DNA of 43,840 bases from an uncultured Clostridia bacterium (GTDB lineage: Bacteria > Bacillota > Clostridia > Oscillospirales > Acutalibacteraceae), in NCBI GenBank assembly GCA_946407465.1, contig CAMJOD010000002.1:1-43840 (forward strand), read 5' to 3'. A model generated the notes under the pieces. The model had not been told where the DNA came from. It did no database searches and worked only from the letters and a program-made list of their open reading frames with translations. The position numbers and the translations under genes are program-made. Position 1 is the first letter of the stretch. Every line of letters starts with the position of its first letter. Below, piece after piece: positions 2,375-9,347 of the stretch.

Positions 2375-3511
2375 CTAATATGGCTCAATTCTGCGGAGCG
2401 TCATCATATCCTCGTTGATGCTTTCGGTGTGTCCCTTTTTGATCTGTTCGTCACAGTAACGGTACAGCTTGCCAAAGGTCTTTGCCGCCTTGTCCCAGCT
2501 CTCCTTTTGGGGACCGCTGAGCGCGTGCCTTTTTATGCCGTATTTGTTCTGTACGATTTCGCCCAGATAATCCGTCAGCTTGACGGTGCCGTAGATATTG
2601 AGGTGGTCGTAATTATAAAAATCCTTTTTGTAGTCAATGCCTGCCTGTCGCCATTCGCGCTCCAGATTGATGTAGTCGTAACCGTATTCTTGCACGATTT
2701 CAGCCGCCTCGTTGGAGCGCTTGACGCGTTCATAGGTGGCAGGATAGACCATGTGCGGCATGCGGACAAACGCCACACGCAGCTCTTGCTCCTTGCAGAA
2801 GCGCAGCAGCTCCTTCATCTTTTTTTCAAGGGTTTTGTTGAGCTTGGCGGTGCGGTTCTCAATAATGATTTTGTCGTTGAGCACCTTGTCGCTCGGCTTA
2901 AACACCTCGGTGTTGGTGCGAAAGCCTCTCAGATAGTAGGAGTCGGTGAGCTGCATTTCGATGGCGGAAGCCGTTCGCCGCAGGGAGTTCGGCAGCTCGT
3001 GCCAGAGGTCGTGGTATTTGATAAGCGGAAAATAGTATTCCATCTGCAAATCCTTGTCCACACAGCGGTTGATAAAGTCGATTTTGTTTTCTCCCAGCGG
3101 AATGTTGTCCACCAGCTTGCGCGTGTGCGCCTCTATTTTTTCATTTTTCGTTTCATTGTAGAGGTAGGCGTTCGGTTCAATCAGCAGCAGCTTGGGCTTT
3201 TGTGTGCGGATAATCTCCTTGAGCGCCAGCATCATGCCGTCGGTGGTGAGGGACTCCGACGCCACCGGATAGCTCGTAAAGCCGTATTTTTCATAGGCTC
3301 TGCATGCGGAAAAGCCCGTATAGACCTCGCTCGCGCCGAGCAGCACCACGTCCAGCTCACCCTGCTCCTGACGGTAATAGCCGTCGAGACGGGTCATGTT
3401 GTGATCCAGCTTGCGCAGCACATAGGTCTGCAAAAAGGTCAGCGTAAGAATCACAGCGAGCAGCAGGCAGGTAATCTTGGCTGTCCGCGAAAGGAATGTA
3501 TGTTTTTTCAT
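2375..3511 (-). CDS. SGNH-hydrolase-like extracytoplasmic protein (DltD/AlgX/AlgJ type)
   Basis: 378 residues. The start at 3511 is chosen because GAGG lies 8 bases upstream; an in-frame ATG at 3541 has no such site. Residues about 9-33 form one N-terminal membrane anchor. A GAS motif (S61) fits the SGNH nucleophile block and D302-H303-L-N fits the Asp-X-X-His block near the C-terminus, so the fold is probably complete. In dlt and alginate systems such proteins sit outside the membrane and pass the acyl group from the MBOAT channel to the polymer. It starts about 10 bases after the MBOAT gene stops, as dltD follows dltB. The polymer acceptor is unknown. Confidence 0.8.
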   Translation of the reverse strand: MKKHTFLSRTAKITCLLLAVILTLTFLQTYVLRKLDHNMTRLDGYYRQEQGELDVVLLGASEVYTGFSACRAYEKYGFTSYPVASESLTTDGMMLALKEIIRTQKPKLLLIEPNAYLYNETKNEKIEAHTRKLVDNIPLGENKIDFINRCVDKDLQMEYYFPLIKYHDLWHELPNSLRRTASAIEMQLTDSYYLRGFRTNTEVFKPSDKVLNDKIIIENRTAKLNKTLEKKMKELLRFCKEQELRVAFVRMPHMVYPATYERVKRSNEAAEIVQEYGYDYINLEREWRQAGIDYKKDFYNYDHLNIYGTVKLTDYLGEIVQNKYGIKRHALSGPQKESWDKAAKTFGKLYRYCDEQIKKGHTESINEDMMTLRRIEPY

Positions 3512-3521
3512 GGAAGGTGCC

Positions 3522-5156
3522 TCAGAATTGCATATAAACAAAGTCCGCCGCGTTGTAGCCGGAGCCGTAGATGCCGAACACCGCTACCGCCACCAAGCCG
3601 AGATAGATGAGGATAAAGCGCAGCGCAAAGGGAGTATCGTCCAGCATTTCACGAATGGTGGTGTGGGGATTTCTCTCCTGAATCACACCGATAAAGAACA
3701 GTATCGCCGCGCCGATTGCCAGTACGACATAGTCCTTTTCGAGCAGACCGAGCTTGTCGCATTCTTCGCCGAACAGCGCAAAATTCTGGTTGGTGAAGAA
3801 GCCGGTGATGGTGTTCATGCCGTCGGCAAAGCTGGGCGCCACGTCAAACACATAGCCGACCAGCACCACCACAAAGGTGCGCAAAATCTGGAAAACGCCG
3901 TAGCCAAAGCTCTCGCGGCGGATGTGCAGCTTGGCGACGATGCTGTCAAACACAGGCTGCAGCAAAATGCTCAGCATAATAATGCCGCCGTTCCAAATGC
4001 CGAACGCCACATATTTCCAGTCGGCGCCGTGCCAGATGCCGACCACCAAAAAGACAATCAGCGAAGCCACGCTGGTCGGCAGCACCTTGGCAACATGCGT
4101 GCCTGCCGCGGTCTTGCCAAAGCGCGTGTTCTTCATCTTTTTGCTCGCGGTGAGGAACACATTGGACATGGCGATGGGGTAGAACAGGTAGTTCTTGAGC
4201 CAAGCGCCGAGTGAGATGTGCCATCTGCGCCAGTATTCGTTGATGGATTTGGAAAAATACGGTCGCTTGAAGTTGTCGATCATGTCAATGCCGAAGATTT
4301 GCGCCACGCCGCGCGAGATGTCGATACCGCCCGAAAAGTCGGCGTAAAGCTGCAGGGCGTAGAGCAGCACAATAAAGGTCAGCGTTGTGCCGCTGTAGGC
4401 GCCGTAATCCGCCGTTACCGCCTGAATGGCGATAGCCGCGCGGTCGGCAATGATAATTTTTTTGCAGAAGCCCCACAAAATCAGCTCCATGCCGTGCTTC
4501 ATGCGTGTAAAGTCAAAGTCGTGCGGCTCAAACAGCTGATGTGCCAGCTGGTCATAGATGCTGATAGGACCCTGCACAATCTGCGGAAAGAACGAGACAA
4601 ACAGCAGCAGCTTGGCAGGATTCTTTTGCGGCGGTGTTTTTTCGCGGTAGACGTCCACGATGTAGCCCATGGACTGGAAGGTGTAGAACGAAATACCCAG
4701 CGGCAAAAACAAATTGAGCGTCGGCGCCGAAAAGTCCATGCCAAAGCTGCCCAAAATGTCGTTGAGGCTGCCCGCGAAAAAGTTAAAATACTTCAAAAAC
4801 GCCAGAATGCCGAAGTTCAGCACCAGCGCCAGCGTCATGACCAGACGCTTTTGAATCTTGATACGGTTTTTGTAGGCTTTTTTCTGATTTTTGTCCCATT
4901 CCGACTTTTTGGATTTTAACAGTGCCTTGGAATTTTTGGAGATTCTGTCAATCCACAGCGCAATCAAATACGTGCTCAGCGTGGTGAACAGAATAAAATA
5001 GGCAAAGCGGTAGCCGGCGACTGCATAGAAAAACAAGCTTGCGGCGAGCAGTACAGTCCATTTATACTTCTTTGCGGGAAATAAAAAGTACACCAGCATG
5101 GTGGCGAGCACAAAGAAGAGAAAGTTTAGGGAAGTATAGGTTATATTGAATAACAC
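3522..5156 (-). CDS. MBOAT family membrane O-acyltransferase (DltB/AlgI type)
   Basis: 544 residues starting at GTG 5156 with GGAG 8 bases upstream. About a dozen membrane helices. Conserved MBOAT features are present: YWRRWHISLGAW with H313 and GIWHGADW with the expected catalytic H376. Length fits AlgI/PatA/DltB-like members. Family role: moves an acyl group from a cytoplasmic carrier (here probably the ACP at 6437-6664) across the membrane to a surface polymer, with an SGNH partner. Its neighbours on both sides agree with that. A strong palindrome at 5189-5218 separates it from the decarboxylase, so its expression may be lower than that of the upstream genes. Confidence 0.9.
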   Translation of the reverse strand: MLFNITYTSLNFLFFVLATMLVYFLFPAKKYKWTVLLAASLFFYAVAGYRFAYFILFTTLSTYLIALWIDRISKNSKALLKSKKSEWDKNQKKAYKNRIKIQKRLVMTLALVLNFGILAFLKYFNFFAGSLNDILGSFGMDFSAPTLNLFLPLGISFYTFQSMGYIVDVYREKTPPQKNPAKLLLFVSFFPQIVQGPISIYDQLAHQLFEPHDFDFTRMKHGMELILWGFCKKIIIADRAAIAIQAVTADYGAYSGTTLTFIVLLYALQLYADFSGGIDISRGVAQIFGIDMIDNFKRPYFSKSINEYWRRWHISLGAWLKNYLFYPIAMSNVFLTASKKMKNTRFGKTAAGTHVAKVLPTSVASLIVFLVVGIWHGADWKYVAFGIWNGGIIMLSILLQPVFDSIVAKLHIRRESFGYGVFQILRTFVVVLVGYVFDVAPSFADGMNTITGFFTNQNFALFGEECDKLGLLEKDYVVLAIGAAILFFIGVIQERNPHTTIREMLDDTPFALRFILIYLGLVAVAVFGIYGSGYNAADFVYMQF

Positions 5157-5174
5157 AATATCAACTCCGATTGT

Positions 5175-5218
5175 AAAAGCTCAAAACAGGCAGCCGTTTT
5201 AGTACTAAAACAGCTGCC
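5175..5218 (-). terminator. Palindrome, probable attenuating terminator inside the operon
   Basis: A 30-base palindrome (5189-5218) with one mismatch and a GTAC loop, followed on the minus strand by TGTTTT and then TTTT. It sits between the decarboxylase stop and the MBOAT start. The T-tract is interrupted, so partial termination is more likely than full. Confidence 0.55.
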
Positions 5219-5245
5219 GGATGGTATGATAGATTGTTGAACCGC

Positions 5246-6433
5246 TTAAAGCGCAGGTGTGTTGAAAACGTCGGAATACAGCATTTCGCGGATGACGGTC
5301 AGGCCGTTTTTCTCGGAATAAACTGCCACAACCGGCATCTCGCGGCTGAGGAACACAGCCATGCCCTCGGTCACGGAATAGGCGCCTGTGCGGCAGAATA
5401 CCAGCACGTCGCCGATAGCCAGCGAGTCAAACTCCGCGTTGCGCGTCAAAATGTCCGCAGTGGTACACAGGCTGCCGCAGAGCGTCCATGCCTGCACGGT
5501 GCCGGTGTCCTCGCGGTCTTTGAGGTGAACCATCACGGGAATCTGCATGCCCTGCAGCTGTCCGTCATATTTGAGCTGGTTCATACCGCCGTCCACAATG
5601 GCGTAGTTGATGCCGTAGTTGGTCTTGACGTCAATCACCTTGGTGAGGTAGAAGCCGCAGGGAGCGGCAAAAAATCTGCCCATCTCCACCGTCAGCGCGG
5701 CTTTTTCGGCGAGTGCGCGAATGCCCTCGCTGATGGAGGCAAGGCGCTCCTCCTCAAGTCTGTCGGCGTCGGCGTCAAAATAATCGACCGCCAAGCCGGT
5801 GCCATACTCAATGCGCTCAATTGTAAAGTCAAGGTCAGCCTTGACGCGGTCAATCAAATCGGCGAGGTAGTCCAGCTCACGCAGAATCGGCTTTGCCTTT
5901 TTCTTCTGGGTGCCGGTAAAATAGTGGATACCCACGATTTCCATGCCCGGATAGTCGGCGCGGCTGCGGATAATATCCAACACCTGCGCTTCCTCCATGC
6001 CGAACTGGCTGCCGCCTCTCACATCGGTGACGCGCAGCAGCACCGGATAGACCTTGCCGCGCTTGATTGCCTCGGCGTTAATCATCTGCACATGCAGCAG
6101 GCTCTCGGCGGTAAAGGTGCCCACCTTGTCCTCGGCGGCACGCGCCACGTCCTTTTCGGTTTTGTTGACGCCGGAAAAAATGATTTTGCCGGTTTCTACG
6201 CCTGTTTTTTCGCAGACGGTCAGCTCGCCGGGGCTGCACACCTCGATTTTGTCAAAGACGTCGGGCAGTCTGCCCAGCAAAAACGGATTTGCCTTGATAG
6301 AAAAGCAAAGTCCCGTTTTGTCGCCGAAATAGCGGCGCACCATGGCGGCGCGTTTTTCGAATGCATCCAGGTCAAAGATATAGGCAGGCGTAGCCAGCTG
6401 CGACGCGAGCGTTGTTAATGTTTGCTTATCCAT
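5246..6433 (-). CDS. PLP-dependent decarboxylase, fold type III (LysA/BtrK-like)
   Basis: 395 residues. Features of the alanine-racemase-fold decarboxylases: PLP lysine K47 in FSIKANP, H170 in HYFTGTQ, a glycine-rich loop at 211-216, EMGR at 250-253, the acid/base cysteine in CGSLCTTAD (C323 to D327) and GAYS at 350-353. Two blocks differ from LysA: TGTQ replaces the usual GSQ ending of the His block, and VDGGMN replaces the LysA form. It is encoded 3 bases after the ACP gene, with the adenylating enzyme before that. By analogy with BtrK of butirosin biosynthesis, which decarboxylates an ACP-bound amino acid, it may act on a carrier-tethered substrate. That is inference; a free diamino acid is the alternative. 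Confidence 0.85.
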   Translation of the reverse strand: MDKQTLTTLASQLATPAYIFDLDAFEKRAAMVRRYFGDKTGLCFSIKANPFLLGRLPDVFDKIEVCSPGELTVCEKTGVETGKIIFSGVNKTEKDVARAAEDKVGTFTAESLLHVQMINAEAIKRGKVYPVLLRVTDVRGGSQFGMEEAQVLDIIRSRADYPGMEIVGIHYFTGTQKKKAKPILRELDYLADLIDRVKADLDFTIERIEYGTGLAVDYFDADADRLEEERLASISEGIRALAEKAALTVEMGRFFAAPCGFYLTKVIDVKTNYGINYAIVDGGMNQLKYDGQLQGMQIPVMVHLKDREDTGTVQAWTLCGSLCTTADILTRNAEFDSLAIGDVLVFCRTGAYSVTEGMAVFLSREMPVVAVYSEKNGLTVIREMLYSDVFNTPAL

Positions 6434-6436
6434 AGC

Positions 6437-6664
6437 TTATTCGTCCTGGAGCTTTTCAATCATCGCCCACATAGCCTTGGCGGAGTTGAAGTTCTCGGGA
6501 ATGAGGTTGTTGGGCTTGATTTCGATGTCAAATTCATCGTTCAGCTCGCCTACGAGCGCCACAATATCAAAGGAATCGAGTACGCCGTTGGTGATAAGCG
6601 CGGTTTCATTTTCAAAGTCAACGTCGGGTCTGAGGTTTTCCAAAATCTGCATTAATTCATCCAT
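6437..6664 (-). CDS. Acyl/aminoacyl carrier protein (DltC-like)
   Basis: 75 residues, acidic, four-helix carrier pattern. The 4'-phosphopantetheine site is S31 in GVLDSFD; the usual DSL is DSF here, which occurs in other clostridial carrier proteins. SD GGAG 9 bases before the ATG. It sits between the adenylating enzyme and the decarboxylase with gaps of 19 and 3 bases, so all three are almost certainly translated from one mRNA and work together. Standalone, with no polyketide or fatty-acid genes nearby. Confidence 0.9.
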   Translation of the reverse strand: MDELMQILENLRPDVDFENETALITNGVLDSFDIVALVGELNDEFDIEIKPNNLIPENFNSAKAMWAMIEKLQDE

Positions 6665-6683
6665 GATAAAAATCTCCTTTACA

Positions 6684-8189
6684 TCATTTAAAATAGGATT
6701 TTAATGTTTGCATATCGGTTTTGCCGTTAGGCAGCGTGGGCAGCGCTTCGAGGTTAATCAGCTTGCGCGGCACCATAAAGGCAGGCATATTCTGCCTGAA
6801 ATAGAGTACAATTTCTTTGGAGGTCGCGGGACCAACATAGAAAAGGTAGAGGGTGGCTTTGTCTTTATAGTAAAGCGCGCAGCAGTCTGTCACGCCTGCT
6901 ATCTTCTTGGCGGTCTCCTCGATTTCGCCCAGCTCAATGCGGTGGCCGAGGTGCTTAATCTGACGGTCTTTTCTGCCGTGGAAGTGCAGAATACCGTTTT
7001 CGTCAAAGTGGCCGAGGTCGCCGGTCTTATAAATCAACTCGCGGTAGTTGTCGTTGAGCGGATTCTGCAAAAAGCTCTTTTCGGTCTGCTCCTTGTTGCC
7101 GTAGTAGCCGAGCGCGAGAATCGGTCCGCTGACGCAGATTTCACCGGTTTCGCCCTGCGGCGTGGCGGTGTTGTCCTCGCTGAGCAGCATCACGTGATAG
7201 TTGTCATAGGGAGTGCCGATGGGCAGCACGGTGTCGTCGGTCACCTTTTCCTTTACCACATAATAGGTGCAGGAAGCGGTTGCCTCGGTGGGACCGTACT
7301 GGTTGACATAGAGGACGTCGGGCAGGTGCTCCTGCCAGATTTTGAGGTATTTGCAGGGCATGACCGAACCGGAGAAGCAGAGCTTTTTGAGGTATTCGGG
7401 CTTGCCCACGTCAAACGCGCCGAGCTTGGCAGGCAGCTCCACACCGGCAACACTCCAGCACAGCGCGGTGATCTTTTCGCGGTTGAGCGTGTCAAAGAGG
7501 GTGGTGGGAACGGCAAACTCGTTCTTGGGAATGATATAGGTCGAAGCGCCGAAGCTGACGGGGAAGTAAATGTCTCTGACAGCGGCAATGTAGTCGAGCG
7601 GACTCTGGTTGCCCAGGGTGTCGTCGCTGTTGATGCCGAGCACCTTTGCCACGGAGTCGATGTAGGTCATCAGGGACTGGTGCGAGGTGATAACGCCCTT
7701 GGGTACGCCGGTGGAGCCGGAGGTGAAGATGACATACAGCGGCGAGGTGCAGCCGAGGGTCTTTTCACGGGCAGCGAGCAGCGCCTCGTCCGGTTCGGTG
7801 TCGCGGATGTCCTCAAAGACGATAATCTCGCCGTCAAAGTCGAGCTTTTGGGCGGTTTCAAGGTGTGCTCTGTCAACGAGCATAAAGTCAGCGCGGATAA
7901 CGCCGATAATCTGATTCAGTCTTGTCTGCGGCATATCGCCGTCCATCGGCGCATAAAAGCAGCCTGCGCGGACAGCGCCCAAAAAGCAGGAGGGCGTCAG
8001 AATATGCCTGCCCGACATCACGGCGATGGGTGCGCCTGCCGGTACTCTTTGCGCCAGATAGGTGCCGACCGATTTTGTCAGGCGGTCAAATTCACCAAAG
8101 GTGATTTCGGCGGTTTCGTCGCGGAACATGACCTTGTCGGGAAACGCGGCGGCTGTTTTGTCCAAACGGTTAAGAACAGAAGTTTCCAT
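6684..8189 (-). CDS. AMP-forming amino-acid/acyl ligase (DltA-like adenylation enzyme)
   Basis: 501 residues, the length of DltA. Adenylation core motifs are in order: A3 YVIFTSGSTGVPKG (152-165), A5 NQYGPTEATASC (296-307), A7 YKTGDLG, A8 GRKDRQIKHLGHRIELGEIE, and A10 LPNGKTD with the catalytic lysine near the C-terminus. It should activate an amino or carboxylic acid with ATP and load it on the neighbouring carrier protein. The residues lining the substrate pocket cannot be read reliably, so D-alanine should not be assumed; the decarboxylase in the operon argues for a different amino acid. First gene of the operon. Confidence 0.88.
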   Translation of the reverse strand: METSVLNRLDKTAAAFPDKVMFRDETAEITFGEFDRLTKSVGTYLAQRVPAGAPIAVMSGRHILTPSCFLGAVRAGCFYAPMDGDMPQTRLNQIIGVIRADFMLVDRAHLETAQKLDFDGEIIVFEDIRDTEPDEALLAAREKTLGCTSPLYVIFTSGSTGVPKGVITSHQSLMTYIDSVAKVLGINSDDTLGNQSPLDYIAAVRDIYFPVSFGASTYIIPKNEFAVPTTLFDTLNREKITALCWSVAGVELPAKLGAFDVGKPEYLKKLCFSGSVMPCKYLKIWQEHLPDVLYVNQYGPTEATASCTYYVVKEKVTDDTVLPIGTPYDNYHVMLLSEDNTATPQGETGEICVSGPILALGYYGNKEQTEKSFLQNPLNDNYRELIYKTGDLGHFDENGILHFHGRKDRQIKHLGHRIELGEIEETAKKIAGVTDCCALYYKDKATLYLFYVGPATSKEIVLYFRQNMPAFMVPRKLINLEALPTLPNGKTDMQTLKSYFK

Positions 8190-8257
8190 ACGGAGAAAAT
8201 CTCCTCCTTTTCAACATAATCTTATTAACAGCATAATCGCATGAATATACATTATTA

Positions 8258-8285
8258 ATTATAGTGAAATTCTTGTCAAAGTCAA
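8258..8285 (-). promoter_or_regulatory. Promoter of the dlt-like operon
   Basis: Minus strand TTGACT, 16-base spacer, TATAAT, about 70 bases before the start at 8189. The flanks are AT-rich. It lies just downstream of the terminator of the glycosyltransferase gene. Confidence 0.65.
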
Positions 8286-8402: not shown

Positions 8403-9347
8403 TCAGTCCTTCAAATATTGCTCGACAATATAACGCGGACGGCGCTTTGCCTCCATGTAGATTTTGCCGATATACTCGCCGATGACGCCGATGGCGAACA
8501 GCTGCAGACCGCCCAGCGCCCAGATGGAGCAGAGGGTGCTTGCCCAGCCGCTGACGGTTGCGCCGATAAAGAAGCTGACGAGCGAATAGATGATCATAAT
8601 CAGGCTGATAAAGAAGATAATCAGTCCCAGCCACGTGATCATGCGAATGGGGCGGATGCTCAGCGAGGTCACGCCCTCCCACGCGAGAGCGAGCATCTTG
8701 CGCAGCGGATACTTGCTCTTGCCGGCAAGGCGCTCGGCGCGTTCGTAGGTGACGATAGAGCTTTTGTAGCCCACCAGCGGCACCATACCGCGCAGGAAAA
8801 TGTTGGTTTCGTGATAGAGCGAGAACGCCTGCAGCGCGCGTCTGCTCATCAGGCGAAAGTCTGCGTGGTTAAAGATAACCTTTGCGCCCATTTTGTTAAG
8901 AATGCGGTAGTAGGATTCGGCGGTAAAGCGCTTGAAAAAGCTGTCCTTGTCGCGCTTGGAGCGCACGCCGTAAACCACGTCGCTGCCCTTTTCGAACTCC
9001 TCGAGCATTTCGTCAATCGCGTTGATGTCGTCCTGCAAGTCCGCGTCAATCGAAATCACCGCGTCCGCCTTGTCCTTGAGAGTCATCAGACCGGCGAGCA
9101 GCGCGTTCTGGTGACCGCGGTTGCGCGTGAGCTTGATGCCCTGAAAAATCGGGTTCTGTCCGTGCAAATCCTTGATAATGTCCCAGGTTCTGTCCTGCGA
9201 GCCGTCGTCGATAAACACAATGCGGCTGGTCTGCGTAATCTTTCGCTCCGACATCAGGTCGTAGTATTTGTTCAGGAGCTTTTCGGCGGAGTCCCACAGA
9301 ACCTCCTCTTCGTTATAGCATGGAATGGCAAGATATAGTTTTGTCAT
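8403..9347 (-). CDS. Polyprenol-phosphate glycosyltransferase, GT2 (GtrB/DPM1-like)
   Basis: 314 residues. N-terminal GT2 domain with PCYNEEE (9-15), DDGS (47-50) and DADLQDD (101-107, the metal/nucleotide-sugar site). The C-terminus has two membrane helices (about 228-252 and 265-290) and a basic tail, the classic GtrB/CsbB architecture. It should transfer a sugar from a nucleotide donor to undecaprenyl phosphate on the inner membrane face. Such lipid-linked sugars feed GT-C enzymes, and the fusion protein at 1-2275 has a GT-C domain, so the two may form donor and acceptor steps of one pathway (inference). Confidence 0.88.
   Translation of the reverse strand: MTKLYLAIPCYNEEEVLWDSAEKLLNKYYDLMSERKITQTSRIVFIDDGSQDRTWDIIKDLHGQNPIFQGIKLTRNRGHQNALLAGLMTLKDKADAVISIDADLQDDINAIDEMLEEFEKGSDVVYGVRSKRDKDSFFKRFTAESYYRILNKMGAKVIFNHADFRLMSRRALQAFSLYHETNIFLRGMVPLVGYKSSIVTYERAERLAGKSKYPLRKMLALAWEGVTSLSIRPIRMITWLGLIIFFISLIMIIYSLVSFFIGATVSGWASTLCSIWALGGLQLFAIGVIGEYIGKIYMEAKRRPRYIVEQYLKD

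Follow-up and report, generated by a model that had tools for sequence, protein, structure and literature searches.

The window, by which we mean the whole analysed stretch of 43,840 nt, holds five genes on the minus strand between positions 2375 and 8189, just as the preliminary description had placed them. The genes show the dlt-like layout that was claimed there: they encode a DltA-like ligase, a carrier protein, a fold-III PLP decarboxylase (DEC in the following), an MBOAT acyltransferase and an SGNH-fold protein (Table 1). A Pfam scan of the window genes recognised the ligase, the carrier, DEC and the MBOAT. The fifth protein gave no match in Pfam or NCBIfam; its structural model shows the SGNH fold, and G-x-S and H-x-N are conserved in the alignment. 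It is presumed to be extracytoplasmic.

Table 1. Features of the operon and its surroundings in the window.
Feature	Position	Strand	Evidence or remarks
SGNH-fold protein, N-terminal hydrophobic helix	2375..3541	-	GxS at 69-71, H313; alignment, model, fold searches
MBOAT acyltransferase, 544 aa	3522..5156	-	PF03062 61 bits; C-terminal FVYMQF; His in GIWHGA
13-pair hairpin, DEC-MBOAT gap	5189..5218	-	pattern scan
DEC, fold-III (alanine-racemase-fold) PLP decarboxylase, 395 aa	5246..6433	-	Pfam Orn_Arg_deC_N, Orn_DAP_Arg_deC; BtrK-like active-site motifs
Carrier protein, 75 aa	6437..6664	-	PP-binding 20.8 bits; phosphopantetheine Ser in VLDSF
DltA/NRPS-A-like adenylating ligase, 501 aa	6684..8189	-	AMP-binding 190 bits; pocket code by alignment
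Sigma-70-like promoter TTGACA-17-AATAAT, 5' of ligase	8251..8279	-	pattern scan only
Second promoter match TTGACT-16-TATAAT	8285-8258	-	pattern scan only
GT2 glycosyltransferase (PgfS/ArnC-like), neighbour gene	8403..9347	-	own promoter-like site

Since one promoter-like site lies ahead of the ligase gene and a separate one belongs to the GT2 gene, the operon probably consists of these five genes. The GT2 gene, which accompanies part of the loci most closely related to the window (near loci) and none of the remote loci, probably lies outside the operon. The gap between DEC and MBOAT measures only about 20 bases in at least 8 relatives, which is too short for the hairpin seen in the window. A search of the window against Rfam gave no match at gathering scores. 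On the other side of the operon, positions 1-2275 of the minus strand hold an acyltransferase-3 gene that runs off the contig end. A full copy of this gene at another locus (L049, 12160-15168) encodes 1002 aa; its acyltransferase-3 domain is N-terminal, and some 600 aa match nothing in Pfam.

A genome search, which had been suggested in the preliminary description, revealed that the five-gene set recurs in uncultured Clostridia and Ruminococcus genomes and also in other families of the order. Among 100 genomes of the family, DEC had 9 matches of at least 259 bits, the own genome counted, and no other match above 99 bits. Scanning the contigs of genomes yielded 24 DEC loci with record titles Clostridia, Clostridiales or Ruminococcus; 19 of them bear RUG isolate names, which denote a rumen series. 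Where wide flanks were available (32 loci), the carrier gene was present in 32, the ligase and the MBOAT genes in 31 each and the SGNH gene in 28, the missing genes being due to contig ends. Two gene orders occur, carrier followed by DEC in the near group and DEC followed by carrier in the remote group. A DEC profile was run against 295 genomes of the order: 13 scored at least 528 bits (4 further matches had 139-206 bits), and the ligase gene adjoins DEC in all 13. At the level of the phylum, 4 of 398 genomes scored at least 365 bits, with 10 further matches at 139-206 bits. A genome from outside the class (G411) has ligase, DEC, carrier and MBOAT together with a fifth gene, whose match to the SGNH profile scores 51.6 bits, while in G773 ligase, DEC and carrier lie together and an MBOAT gene beside them is absent.

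All three Dlt-related proteins that we compared to curated Dlt models scored below the respective cut-offs. The ligase reached 242.6 of the 559.85 bits needed for the DltA equivalog and was below both DltA cut-offs, the carrier reached 31.7 of 68 and 20.2 of 52.35 bits with the DltC models, and the MBOAT 135 of 375 bits with the DltB equivalog. The ligase differs from DltA in score and also in pocket code (see below), which supports the earlier interpretation in part. The Ser of the carrier motif was conserved in 43 of 43 carriers and the MBOAT His in 41 of 41 reads. The MBOAT C-terminus showed F/P-x-Y-x-x-F in 31 of 41 reads; in one Asp replaced the Tyr, and in 9 the motif was not terminal; several loci are cut inside the gene. 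The FVYMQF of the window belongs to the kind of shuttle motif that becomes acetylated in PatA, with Tyr as in PatA and DltX (PMC12148441). The five genes form a real, conserved operon, which is Dlt-like in its working yet falls below the Dlt cut-offs applied here.

Canonical DltA was found in none of 16 operon genomes. This means little, since a control of 80 genomes of the family had it only once, and for the same reason we rejected the idea that the operon replaces dlt.

DEC had been compared to BtrK, and its active-site residues are indeed BtrK-like rather than LysA-like. The LysA model TIGR01048 gave 183.6 bits, below the cut-off of 297.9. In the alignment, LysA proteins have the His of CHxGSQ in 24 of 25 rows, the Pro of EPGR in 24 of 25 and the Glu of CES in 25 of 25. 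The 23 operon rows carry Phe/Tyr, Leu/Met and Thr/Ser at these sites, each LysA residue being found in 0 of 23, and BtrK has Tyr, Ser and Thr. Over 44 DEC loci the aromatic-x-GTQ motif began with Phe or Tyr in every case and ended with Gln in 41 and Ala in 3; the LCT-type motif read C-T/S in 43, the remaining locus being cut. The DEC model (pLDDT 87.1) had BtrK as its top structural match, tied with LysA. In a quick tree, made from a set without VinO, FlvO and members of TIGR03099, the operon DECs formed one clade apart from LysA, while BtrK paired with L092 outside this clade, in a position intermediate between it and LysA but drawn on the side of LysA, on long branches. Grouping of DEC with the diaminopimelate (DAP) decarboxylases, as the only lysA of the genome, had been named as evidence against the earlier interpretation; besides the separate clade in this quick tree, we found a separate and better lysA match in 16 of 16 operon genomes tested, in 8 of them over the curated cut-off. 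DEC is not the lysA of its genome.

It is therefore extremely unlikely that DEC serves lysine synthesis, be it as an ordinary DAP decarboxylase or as a second one, and came to lie in an acylation operon by chance. Database entries do name three near relatives (P0110, P0111, P0115) diaminopimelate decarboxylase, and the TIGR01048 score, although below the cut-off, points in the same direction; against this stand the better lysA matches elsewhere, the loss of the LysA residues and the retention of DEC with ligase and carrier. The fold, which is common to alanine racemase (PF01168, 30 bits on DEC), would also suit another PLP reaction on a carrier-bound amino acid, for example epimerisation. We regard this as very unlikely: of the 44 loci, the 43 that extend to the decarboxylase motifs GSLC and GAY[SC] all retain the Cys and the Tyr, and the first-listed structural matches of the model are all decarboxylases.

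We consider it moderately probable that the operon performs a Dlt-like surface acylation with built-in decarboxylation, in which a dicarboxylic amino acid is loaded, decarboxylated by DEC on the carrier and exported by the MBOAT-SGNH pair. The ligase would adenylate an amino acid with a second carboxylate, candidates being Asp, Glu, aminoadipate and DAP, and load it onto the carrier. DEC would then strip the free alpha-carboxylate from the thioester-bound residue, as BtrK does on glutamyl-BtrI and VinO on 3-methylaspartyl-VinL. The MBOAT may accept the acyl group of the carrier on the Tyr of FVYMQF at its own C-terminus, and the SGNH protein may pass it on to a surface polymer. The carboxylate that a PLP decarboxylase removes has to have an amino group adjacent to it. 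For DEC to work on a loaded substrate, attachment to the carrier must be through a different carboxyl, which makes the substrate dicarboxylic, either Asp, Glu or aminoadipate loaded via the side chain, or DAP. Both BtrK (PMC7857480) and VinO (PMC11284099) are described as acting on carrier-bound substrates, with loading preceding decarboxylation. The gene set, its conservation, the catalytic residues and the code classes of the ligases with their link to DEC were observed directly; the order of the steps, the substrate, the product and the acceptor we infer. In favour of on-carrier decarboxylation we count the gene linkage, which is conserved in two orders and across genera and families, the separate lysA matches, the clade, residues and structural match of DEC, and the basic residue at 239 and the DEC-linked codes of the ligases (see below). 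We count against it the position of BtrK outside the operon clade, the single MBOAT with Asp in place of the shuttle Tyr and the locus in G773 without an adjoining MBOAT.

The predicted pocket code of the window ligase is IARCCSQASK (PheA numbering 235, 236, 239, 278, 299, 301, 322, 330, 331, 517). It was read from an alignment with the PheA positions as placed by us; the register around 235-239 was verified on LgrA. The same code occurred in 22 of 26 near rows, while 2 had Gly at 278 and 2 were partly cut. The 17 remote rows followed the pattern DVK..S[LV]CNK, with DVKILSLCNK in most. Position 239 was Arg or Lys in 43 of 43 aligned orthologues (L068 gave no ligase), and position 235 was Ile in the subclass of the window versus Asp in the remote group. 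In Glu-activating domains, Lys239 is the residue that reads the side-chain carboxylate; the aminoadipate domain of ACV synthetase, where loading is via the side chain, can be cited for Arg239, and Asp235 is the usual anchor of the alpha-amino group. The basic residue at 239 suggests an acidic substrate, and it is expected if the loaded amino acid retains an extra carboxylate. For the subclass of the window we favour an acidic amino acid loaded via its side chain, which would give an omega-amino acyl ester (beta-alanyl or gamma-aminobutyryl). The only canonical dlt operon that was found (L129) has the ligase code DLMVLCTVAK. Our search of one open-access library for the specificity-code strings retrieved no paper.

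The reverse order, in which DEC releases a free omega-amino acid, or a similar compound, and the ligase loads it afterwards for export, has a small but appreciable probability. The gene linkage is equally compatible with this order, and most characterised fold-III decarboxylases work on free amino acids, which we count in its favour. It leaves, however, no obvious use for a basic position 239, present in every one of the 43 aligned orthologues, once the extra carboxylate is gone, and the LysA His, Pro and Glu are replaced in DEC as they are in BtrK. Rather improbable, in our view, is surface lysylation, for which meso-DAP would be loaded via one alpha-carboxylate and decarboxylated by DEC at the other end on the carrier. 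In its favour, both LysA and BtrK are among the best matches of DEC, and the remote ligases combine Asp235 with Lys239, residues for the alpha-amino group and the distal carboxylate, respectively. The Asp235 kept in the remote group suits alpha-loading, for example of DAP, and we count it against side-chain loading followed by decarboxylation. On the other hand, the CES Glu by which LysA binds the distal amino group is Thr or Ser in 23 of 23 operon rows, and position 235 is Ile in the subclass to which the window belongs.

The operon resembles several known systems in part. Like DltABCD/DltX, it combines a free-standing adenylating ligase and a free-standing carrier with MBOAT and SGNH proteins, and it has the Tyr shuttle motif. 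It differs by the additional PLP decarboxylase, by the non-DltA ligase code, by scores that leave ligase, carrier and MBOAT short of the Dlt equivalog cut-offs and by the fusion of the shuttle motif to the 544-aa MBOAT. BtrI/BtrJ/BtrK of butirosin biosynthesis pair a small carrier protein with a decarboxylase that is related to LysA and has undergone the same replacements in the active site; the BtrJ ligase is an ATP-grasp enzyme, unlike the ligase here, and the product enters an antibiotic and not an MBOAT. The preliminary description had also compared the operon to the exosortase A-associated ligase/decarboxylase pair (TIGR03098/TIGR03099), which is linked to surface polysaccharide loci. The combination of a ligase with a fold-III decarboxylase is indeed common to both, but the resemblance is only distant: the scores were 172.2 of 592.35 bits for TIGR03098 and 174.8 of 478.45 bits for TIGR03099, both far below cut-off, and the own genome, 90.8% complete, has no match to exosortase (PF09721). 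VinN/VinL/VinO of vicenistatin biosynthesis, together with the Asp-selective FlvN, resemble the operon in having an adenylation enzyme, a free-standing carrier and a PLP decarboxylase that load and then decarboxylate (PMC11284099), whereas the vicenistatin pathway supplies a polyketide starter. MBOAT-SGNH O-acetylation of the PatA/PatB type shares the fused C-terminal FxYxxF of the MBOAT and the SGNH partner but takes acetyl-CoA and uses no carrier protein (PMC12148441). The same text describes MBOAT-SGNH pathways other than Dlt as lacking a carrier (PMC12148441), while the operon here has the carrier and the fused shuttle motif together. In one open-access library we found no paper linking dlt or D-alanylation genes with a decarboxylase, or teichoic acid with beta-alanine or GABA, and nothing judged related among papers on exosortase-linked decarboxylase/ligase genes and on Dlt in Clostridia.

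We searched 376 genomes of the order with a ligase profile and obtained 68 matches, which came from 65 of them. Together with 8 hand-picked loci, the matches made up 76 operons, which were classed by code and by the presence of DEC up to three genes downstream. DEC was present in 17 of 19 operons of the DVK class and 3 of 3 of the IAR class, versus 0 of 26 for DAKC, 0 of 12 for SM, 0 of 8 for DLK/DAKL/DMR, 0 of 7 for other codes and 0 of 1 for canonical DltA. When the count is restricted to the 68 survey ligases, 20 of the 21 with a DVK/IAR code have DEC at a distance of up to three genes, and none of the other 47 has; a recognised carrier gene adjoins the ligase or its slot gene in 38 of these 47, and the stretches retrieved for the non-DVK/IAR loci contained no DEC-like frame. 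The DVK/IAR code thus goes along with the presence of DEC, which is a new observation. These numbers are a survey and not a census, as the profile was built with these same classes, up to four candidates were scored per genome and one ligase was classed per locus. Two operons had a DVK code without DEC, L122 with a GNAT acetyltransferase in the slot instead and L210 with none, and we count both against decarboxylation on the carrier. On the ligase tree a single gain suffices for DEC (SH-aLRT of the DEC clade only 86), so the link between code and DEC is one event and not many, and repeated independent gains of DEC together with the code were rejected. A basic residue at 239 was present in 57 of the 76 classed ligases, 20 with DEC and 37 without, while 56 lack DEC in all. 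We therefore rejected basic 239 as proof of decarboxylation after loading; because the 37 DEC-less ligases share it, it argues for an acidic substrate only.

In related operons the slot beside ligase and carrier, which DEC occupies here, is empty or holds a GNAT acetyltransferase. A slot gene of 254-275 codons occurs in 7 of 8 DLK/DAKL/DMR operons and was a GNAT acetyltransferase in 6 of 6 scanned. At L199, L200, L203, L205, L207, L208 and L122 the GNAT protein has an extra N-terminal region and is encoded between ligase and carrier. We tentatively propose, at somewhat less than even confidence, that carrier-dependent operons for surface acylation form a modular family in Clostridia, with the operon of the window as one branch. 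The slot enzyme (PLP decarboxylase, GNAT or nothing) would tailor the carrier-bound amino acid before MBOAT export, and the specificity class of the ligase would track the slot enzyme. D-alanylation would then be one case among a wider surface-ester chemistry.

Surface esters from Dlt and MBOAT-SGNH systems alter the cell envelope. If the function proposed for the operon is true, the surface of rumen Clostridia bears other amino acyl groups, decarboxylated or N-acylated, the surface group would be predictable from ligase code and slot gene, and database entries for diaminopimelate decarboxylase, such as the three seen here, need correcting. By one account, Dlt is the carrier-using MBOAT-SGNH pathway, with D-alanine as its cargo (PMC12148441). 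Trimming of an amino acid on the carrier by the added decarboxylase would probably bring a chemical group other than D-alanine to the surface.

Further loci show variation around the MBOAT and SGNH genes. The own genome has a second MBOAT-SGNH pair close to that of the window (937 and 378 bits) on another contig (L047, contig C121, 708-3520). On this 5.7-kb contig no ligase, carrier or decarboxylase was recognised, and the two transferase pairs may be fed by one donor supply. At L043 (11206-16682) one DEC operon comprises two MBOAT-SGNH pairs with the carrier gene between them. Six DLK/DAKL/DMR operons encode a protein of 609-663 aa 3' of the MBOAT; a polysaccharide deacetylase domain was present in both such proteins scanned (L200, L203) and likewise in the L210 protein. 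These three proteins, of 609-647 aa, are encoded at the place of the SGNH gene (L200 3194-5023, L203 6390-8333, L210 3090-4934). In place of an MBOAT gene, L214 and L215 have a gene resembling ketoacyl-ACP synthase III (scanned in L214 only) after their genes for a Dlt-like ligase and a carrier; these loci are perhaps a small natural-product cluster.
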